Below are positions 41,601 to 42,182 of a stretch of DNA of 64,000 bases, piece after piece. Source of the stretch: Pelagibacteraceae bacterium AG-325-C10 (lineage in GTDB: Bacteria; Pseudomonadota; Alphaproteobacteria; Pelagibacterales; Pelagibacteraceae); NCBI GenBank assembly GCA_003282975.1, contig QBYD01000005.1, positions 1 through 64,000 of the forward strand, read 5' to 3'. Positions within the stretch are counted from its first letter, which is position 1. Each line of letters starts with the position of its first letter. The position numbers and the translations under genes are program-made. The notes under the pieces are model-generated. The model did no database searches, had not been told where the DNA came from, and saw only the letters and a list, made by a program, of their open reading frames with translations.

Positions 41601-41629
41601 CTTGAAATTTTTAAAATAATTACCATATG
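41601..41629 (+). promoter_or_regulatory. candidate RpoH (sigma-32) promoter of hsp20
   Basis: CTTGAAAT at 41601 and CCATATG at 41623 are separated by 18 bases from the end of CTTG to the -10, exactly as upstream of groES. The predicted transcription start near 41635 would give a leader of about 57 bases that folds into two hairpins. It lies just after the ptrB stop. Confidence 0.62.
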
Positions 41630-41635
41630 CCTACA

Positions 41636-41685
41636 GTAAGTCGCCTAATGGGTCTTACATAAAATAAACTTGCTTAACAAAGGAG
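41636..41685 (+). ncRNA. candidate ROSE-like RNA thermometer in the hsp20 leader
   Basis: Hairpin I pairs GTAAG (41636-41640) with CTTAC (41654-41658), extended inward by C42-G52, C44-G51 and C45-G50 (last two digits after 416), one mismatch, one bulge and a TAAT loop. Hairpin II pairs TTGCT (41670-41674) with the ribosome binding site AGGAG (41681-41685) across a TAACAA loop. In ROSE elements a UYGCU motif masks the AGGA site with a G-G pair, and the same pairing is possible here. The folding is by eye only. Confidence 0.5.
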
Positions 41686-41691
41686 AATATT

Positions 41692-42138
41692 ATGACAAGT
41701 AAGGATCTATCTATCTTTAACTCACTAAGACCTTTTTCAATTGGTTTTGACGACATGTTTGACCAATTTGAAAATATGTTAGGAAATGGGAATTTGACAA
41801 TGCAGTCAAATTATCCTCCTTATAACATTAGAAAAACCGGTAAAGATAATTATGCTATCGAGGTAGCATTAGCTGGCTTTAACAAAAATGATGTTGAGGT
41901 AGAGTTTGAAGATAATTTATTAACTGTAAGAACTAAACAAGTTAATAAATCGGAAGAAAGCAATGTTGATGGAGAGATTATACATAAAGGTATTTCTCAA
42001 AGACAATTTGCAAGATCATTTACAATCGCAGATGATGTAAAAGTAAATGGTGCTGCATTAAAAGATGGTCTTTTAACAATATCTTGTGAAAGAATAATTC
42101 CAGAACATAAAAAGAAAAAACTTATTGAAATTAAATAA
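41692..42138 (+). CDS. small heat-shock protein, Hsp20/IbpA type
   Basis: Holdase chaperone of the alpha-crystallin family that keeps denatured proteins refoldable. The 148-residue protein has a variable N-terminus with FDDMFDQFENML, the alpha-crystallin domain starting YPPYNIRKTGKDNYAIEVALAGF (written in two halves: YPPYNIRKTG and NYAIEVALAG), and the C-terminal strand with the DGLLTISCER pattern. AAAGGAGAA lies 5-11 bases before the ATG. A heat-shock promoter and a possible RNA thermometer precede it, and a terminator follows. Confidence 0.95.
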   Translation: MTSKDLSIFNSLRPFSIGFDDMFDQFENMLGNGNLTMQSNYPPYNIRKTGKDNYAIEVALAGFNKNDVEVEFEDNLLTVRTKQVNKSEESNVDGEIIHKGISQRQFARSFTIADDVKVNGAALKDGLLTISCERIIPEHKKKKLIEIK

Positions 42139-42149
42139 GTTATACCTTG

Positions 42150-42182
42150 CTTGCGGGGATTTTTCCTCGCAAGTATTTTTTT
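42150..42182 (+). terminator. rho-independent terminator of hsp20
   Basis: CTTGCGGGGA (42150-42159) pairs with TCCTCGCAAG (42164-42173) across a TTTT loop, ten pairs with one G-T wobble, then a TATTTTTTT tail. The end touches the convergent lipoprotein stop. Confidence 0.9.

Follow-up and report, generated by a model that had tools for sequence, protein, structure and literature searches.

The small heat-shock gene hsp20 of a SAR11 bacterium is preceded by a short leader of two hairpins, which very probably acts as a ROSE-like RNA thermometer controlling hsp20 translation. The structure is conserved and covaries, holds its position before the gene together with a promoter motif, and is strictly linked to hsp20. 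In the mechanism we propose, RpoH would transcribe hsp20 under heat stress. At low temperature, ribosomes would be kept off by an imperfect pairing, with one G left over, between the Shine-Dalgarno (SD) sequence and the UUGCU strand of hairpin II. Upon warming, the weak hairpin II would melt while hairpin I stays folded, and Hsp20 would be made. SAR11 cells are among the most abundant in the ocean, and their genomes are very small. If real, a heat sensor on hsp20 that works without protein would provide a concrete, testable tie of water temperature to the stress response in cells that are hard to manipulate.

The hsp20 locus and its promoter

The window, i.e., the whole stretch of 64,000 nucleotides that was analyzed, belongs to a genome assembly 1.09 Mb in size from SAR11 (Pelagibacteraceae). 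The hsp20 gene (Table 1) has a prolyl oligopeptidase gene on one side and a xanthine/uracil-type permease gene on the other, and an identical Hsp20 is also encoded in single-cell genomes, e.g., AG-325-F15. The original prediction had placed TTGCT at 41670-41674 and AGGAG at 41681-41685, and all its coordinates are exact; the hsp20 ATG is at 41692. The leader comprises 57 bases (41635-41691). The probable intrinsic terminator directly 3' of hsp20 suggests a single-gene transcript.

An RpoH-type promoter had also been proposed upstream of the gene, and at the level of sequence this proposal is borne out. An RpoH-like -35/-10 pair is found upstream of 89 of the 95 leaders of relatives, in 80 cases with a spacing of exactly 16 nt, and rpoH is encoded in the source assembly. 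Transcription of hsp20 would then start near 41634-41636. The pattern CTTGAA-N15-17-CCATAT occurs a single time in the 1.09-Mb assembly, at hsp20, while a spacer of 11-15 misses this site. Since the reversed-pattern control equally gave one match, the promoter match on its own is not significant; the significance of the putative motif comes from its conservation in relatives.

Table 1. Coordinates of sequence features at the hsp20 locus (window numbering).
Feature	Position	Strand	Basis
-35-like CTTGAA of RpoH-type promoter	41601..41606	+	sequence; conserved with CCATAT-like -10 in relatives
-10-like CCATAT	41623..41628	+	sequence and conservation
Hairpin I: GUAAG/CUUAC stem, CGCC/GGG apex, unpaired G41643	41636..41658	+	covariation in 91 leaders
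Hairpin II: anti-SD CUUGCUU (41669-41675) against AAGGAG (41680-41685), G41672 unpaired	41669..41685	+	folding; near-invariant core
SD AGGAG, masked in hairpin II	41681..41685	+	sequence; 6-7 bases 5' of hsp20 ATG
hsp20, small heat-shock protein, 148 aa	41692..42138	+	PF00011 (HSP20 domain), 63.7 bits (cut-off 20.8)
AAGUAAG in hsp20 codons 2-4, complementary to anti-SD 41669-41675 over 7 pairs	41697..41703	+	possible competing partner
Probable intrinsic terminator after hsp20, CTTGCTTGCGGGG..CCTCGCAAG then T run	42146..42182	+	direct sequence reading

Folding of the leader and predicted temperature response

Folding at several temperatures reproduced the two-hairpin leader of the original prediction, with its UUGCU/AGGAG pairing and the extra G that is the signature of ROSE elements. 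For the stretch 41635-41694, the two hairpins form the minimum-energy structure at 10-30°C, and hairpin II is weaker by 40°C; in a slightly longer stretch it was kept to 37°C. The pairs of hairpin II are C41669-G41685, U41670-A41684, U41671-G41683, C41673-G41682, U41674-A41681 and U41675-A41680, with G41672 left unpaired. When melting of the leader alone was predicted, hairpin II opened before hairpin I, a result that varies with the length of coding sequence folded. The predicted mean unpaired fraction of the SD was 0.21 at 5°C and 0.39 at 42°C, i.e., the opening is modest. The temperature response of the hsp20 leader and its working range are inferred.

The predicted state of the SD depended on the 3' end of the folded stretch, being open for ends at 41700-41710 and closed again, in the cool, at 41725. 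The SD opens in the folds ending at 41700-41710 because codons 3-5 of hsp20 compete for the anti-SD strand. In a comparison with dinucleotide shuffles of the stretch to 41710, the native SD was no more closed than in the controls (at 5°C, closure in 172 of 200 shuffles equalled or exceeded the native one); this stretch includes the coding competitor that opens the SD, and the negative result applies to that length. When 60-90 coding bases were folded, the core pair was often weak, and the energy rules leave out the non-canonical contacts of ROSE elements. SD closure was also compared with that of other genes of the window, only five of which had a recognizable SD.

Conservation of the leader and its link to hsp20

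Among 147 genomes of the family, 96 contain hsp20, and 91 SAR11-family hsp20 leaders were aligned. Over the whole structure, 95% of the cells of this alignment can form the proposed pairs. Two-sided (compensatory) cells numbered 84, whereas shuffling the columns gave 17.7 and sliding the partners gave no more than 36; in a second alignment the count was 93 versus 21.8 in shuffles. One pair of hairpin I, for instance, is A-U in 57 leaders, U-A in 15, C-G in 12 and G-C in 4. Since hairpin II hardly varies, the covariation supports mainly hairpin I.

Conservation of the UUGCU/AGGAG pairing in relatives had been named beforehand as a decisive point, and it was found: the position of the unpaired G in hairpin II holds a G in 91/91 leaders (90/91 for the corresponding position of hairpin I), and apart from UCGCU in four genomes, the sole variant of the core motif, CUUGCU and the SD hardly vary. 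The ROSE consensus is U(U/C)GCU with an extra G, both for Pseudomonas ibpA (PMC3669281) and for ROSE-like elements generally (PMC11342760). The leaders fall into two types, ACUUGCUUA and CCUUGCUA; in the CCUUGCUA type one upper U-A pair is lost and one lower C-G pair is gained. Two divergent second hsp20 genes (L099, L100) carry no U(U/C)GCU motif before their start.

The leader might be no thermometer at all, with hairpin I merely protecting the 5' end of the mRNA and the UUGCU/SD match arising as a by-product of SD conservation. Nearly all covariation does lie in hairpin I, and the energy models give weak closure. However, SD conservation fails to explain why U(U/C)GCU is almost invariant just ahead of the SD, both in the 91 SAR11 leaders and in 127 leaders sampled from phages of several host groups, and we consider this reading very improbable.

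A covariance model, hereafter R1, was built from SAR11-family hsp20 leaders. On the window it scored the hsp20 leader at 75.5 bits (E 9e-15), a value that is not independent since the window was in the training set, and nothing else exceeded 12.2 bits. When 60 family genomes were searched, a match (E up to 3.2e-4) was obtained in all 41 hsp20-positive genomes but in only one of the 19 hsp20-negative ones, where it lay at a contig edge.

The signal could also be the protein itself, Hsp20 binding the leader and repressing its own translation in response to free Hsp20, or to Hsp20 and temperature together. At the place aligned with the E. coli protein, the window Hsp20 has an arginine (GISQRQFARS, against GIAERNFERK in E. 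coli IbpA). E. coli IbpA represses translation via its 5' UTR and needs Arg93 to do so, a residue that is common in alphaproteobacterial IbpA as well (PMC10474464). Such feedback has been demonstrated in gammaproteobacteria only and would not, taken alone, make the weak U(U/C)GCU/SD core necessary. We judge it possible but rather unlikely; it would be compatible with a thermometer.

Relation to ROSE elements and other known systems

Several features that characterize ROSE-like elements are present in the hsp20 leader: imperfect pairing of U(U/C)GCU with the SD, two hairpins (ROSE-like elements have two to four) of which the 3' one contains the SD, a small heat-shock gene and an RpoH-type motif, which is usual for the class but does not define it. 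What the original prediction had observed at the leader is confirmed, and its ROSE-like interpretation is supported as a structure and as the likely mechanism.

In the proposed search with the Rfam ROSE models, ROSE_3 (RF02523) matched the window leader over its full length, with E 0.03 in a 141-base search of the site, but at 19.7 bits, below the gathering cut-off of 43, and because of this shortfall we name the element ROSE-like and keep it out of RF02523. ROSE_3 gave no match at E up to 1 in 20 other SAR11 loci. A search of 147 family genomes with RF02523 also gave none and carries little weight since the controls equally remained without a match; the class-wide search yielded two weak matches, adjoining clpB-like genes. 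R1, run over 337 genomes of the class, found hsp20 leaders in other alphaproteobacteria. Two of these leaders reach 34.5 and 28.6 bits on ROSE_3, and the hsp20 leader of the Methylophilales phage Melnitz-3 reaches 34.1 bits. As far as sequence comparison goes, the gap between the window leader and ROSE_3 is bridged by these better-scoring homologues, including the GCC/GGG apex and the unpaired G of hairpin I. The window leader shares these two features and the two-hairpin plan with ROSE_3, from which it differs in its shorter loops and A+T-rich stems.

Other Rfam matches at the site were weak, among them preQ1-II (14.9 bits), and were judged to be due to chance. A fourU thermometer was rejected since the strand facing the SD is CUUGCUU and not four consecutive U.

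A close likeness is to the Pseudomonas ibpA leaders, which have two hairpins and 61-62 nt and whose thermometer function has been proven by experiment; the shared features include similar size, U(U/C)GCU facing the SD in hairpin II, a stable hairpin I, a sigma-32 promoter and a small heat-shock gene (PMC3669281). The Pseudomonas elements differ in being gammaproteobacterial and experimentally proven, and the text consulted describes no coding-region constraint (PMC3669281). Classic rhizobial ROSE (Bradyrhizobium hspA, ROSE1) shares the motif and the gene class, but its leader is longer and forms three to four hairpins (PMC3669281). The compactness stressed by the original prediction holds relative to the rhizobial elements, but is not novel given the size of the Pseudomonas leaders.

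A possible but not further specified RNA thermometer was reported in 2019 from strain HIMB5, a member of the same SAR11 clade (PMC6429828), and this may be the present hsp20 element. The text of an earlier RNA study of Pelagibacter contains no mention of thermometers or heat shock (PMC2704228).

Constraint on the first codons of hsp20

In 106 unique hsp20 sequences, codons 2-4 (ACA AGT AAG) show zero synonymous change, which is true of no other codon among the 135 tested. These three codons are equally without synonymous change in 72 genomes whose protein starts with MTSKD, MTSRD or MTGKD; the set of 106 includes genomes beyond these 72. Lys4 is encoded by AAG in 104/104 cases, a codon that makes up 19% of the lysine codons elsewhere in these genes, and the adjoining permease gene has AAA at its N-terminal lysines. 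The duplex of the anti-SD strand with the coding segment has a mean energy of -8.7 kcal/mol versus -3.0 kcal/mol for synonymous recodings. At the level of these sequences, the constraint is real and, because the complementarity is missing from the other genera of the family, specific to the lineage of Pelagibacter and its close genera.

Our preferred reading of this constraint, which we put forward tentatively, is that in these genera the element extends into the coding region and works as a two-state switch. In the off state, the SD would be the partner of the anti-SD strand; in the on state, codons 2-5 (AAGUAAG/AGUAAGG) would take its place, and warming would shift the balance toward this SD-exposed form. 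This would refine the thermometer reading and is not exclusive with it. Codons 2-4 are frozen at the nucleotide level, with the minority codon AAG always used for Lys4, and the seven complementary positions are kept in both leader types despite their different register. The exchanges K4R via AGG (L016) and S3G via GGU (three genomes) preserve the pairing. With 33 as well as 90 coding bases included, warming increases the predicted on/off ratio in 67 of 70 genomes, but with 60 coding bases it does so in only 48 of 70, and the predicted probability of the on state is small in most genomes. Furthermore, the complementarity is absent in other genera of the family and broken in L020. The main alternative is a conserved SD-like UAAGGA: the segment contains this sequence, and the constraint could accordingly have another cause. 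The two-state reading is therefore possible rather than probable.

Occurrence in phages

The distribution of the leader in phages is unexpectedly wide and the coding-region constraint is unusual. A search of IMG/VR with the hairpin II pattern returned at least 120 stretches. In the 80 loci listed from this search, R1 gave 73 matches with E below 0.003; of those inspected, almost all lay directly before hsp20, phage dnaK or, once, groES. Searches starting from proteins agreed: R1 matched in 63 out of 64 viral loci with an Hsp20 similar to that of the window and in 78/78 with one similar to a cyanophage Hsp20. Nearly all of these matches lie immediately 5' of hsp20, and the weakest have E up to 0.4. 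At phage dnaK loci, a match right before dnaK (E below 0.005) was found in 66 of 80, and 51 of these 66 had another just after dnaK. The phage locus sets (L269-L348, L389-L471, L472-L551, L552-L631) contain near-duplicates, and the counts are not independent. Phage dnaK-hsp20 pairs often have one leader before each gene. In total, 508 phage records encode a relative of the window Hsp20, and the leaders were examined in a minority of them.

With E values from 1e-8 to 0.003, R1-positive phages include the Pelagibacter phages HTVC008M, Mosig, HTVC103P and HTVC115P, Melnitz-3, and the cyanophages S-CAM8, P-SSM4, S-MS29, P-SSM2, S-PM2, S-CAM9, S-CREM1, ACG-2014f, syn9, S-CRM01 and P-HM2. Pseudomonas phage Ettore shows a weaker match (E 0.07) with UUGCG. 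In 127 phage leaders, the hairpin II core is nearly invariant and 378 two-sided cells were counted versus 109 in shuffles, in an alignment fitted to the model, which favours structure. We regard the phage leaders with confidence as structures of the ROSE type.

The lambda cIII thermometer of phage has another motif and acts on another gene, not a chaperone gene. The same applies to the fourU thermometer of blyA in prophage SPbeta, through which phage RNA thermometers were likewise already known (PMC10586365). No report of ROSE-like leaders on phage hsp20, dnaK or groES was found in the literature searched, which omits most subscription journals. Should phages that infect Pelagibacter, Synechococcus and Prochlorococcus have this sensor on their chaperone genes, temperature could act directly on the expression of phage genes during infection. 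It is a more speculative and, on present evidence, doubtful idea that ROSE-type thermometers form a module shared by aquatic bacteria and phages, with temperature-set phage chaperones and the two-state switch as the version of the Pelagibacter host.

In Prochlorococcus phage P-HM2 (L400), an ATG that lies in frame 72 bases into the annotated hsp20 gene marks the end of the leader match, and the annotated start is probably too far upstream. A viral contig carries a glutamine riboswitch (L441:1107-1157, 64.1 bits) downstream of hsp20.

Leader matches before other genes

In four members of the class (L143, L149, L151, L157), R1 matched directly before a gene for an RpoH-type sigma factor (24-35 bits). 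A further match lies before bacterial dnaK in L155, L178 and L180, where hairpin I is recognizable; in the latter two, hairpin II shows less clearly. The scores of these rpoH and dnaK leaders of the class are modest (23-35 bits), and we treat them as leads. The rpoH leaders of the source assembly and six relatives gave no convincing match, and a search of the order to which one genome with a matching rpoH leader belongs covered three genomes. A 2014 review states that ROSE accompanies small heat-shock genes in every case (PMC4166951); contrary to this, the sequence matches make it seem that the ROSE-like element is not confined to them.

Weak R1 matches (25-29 bits) were also noted before a proteorhodopsin-like gene in L161 (G031) and L162 (G054), an assignment that is our own reading (NCBIfam gave none for the fragment). 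The hairpin at these two sites is followed by a U run and is terminator-like.
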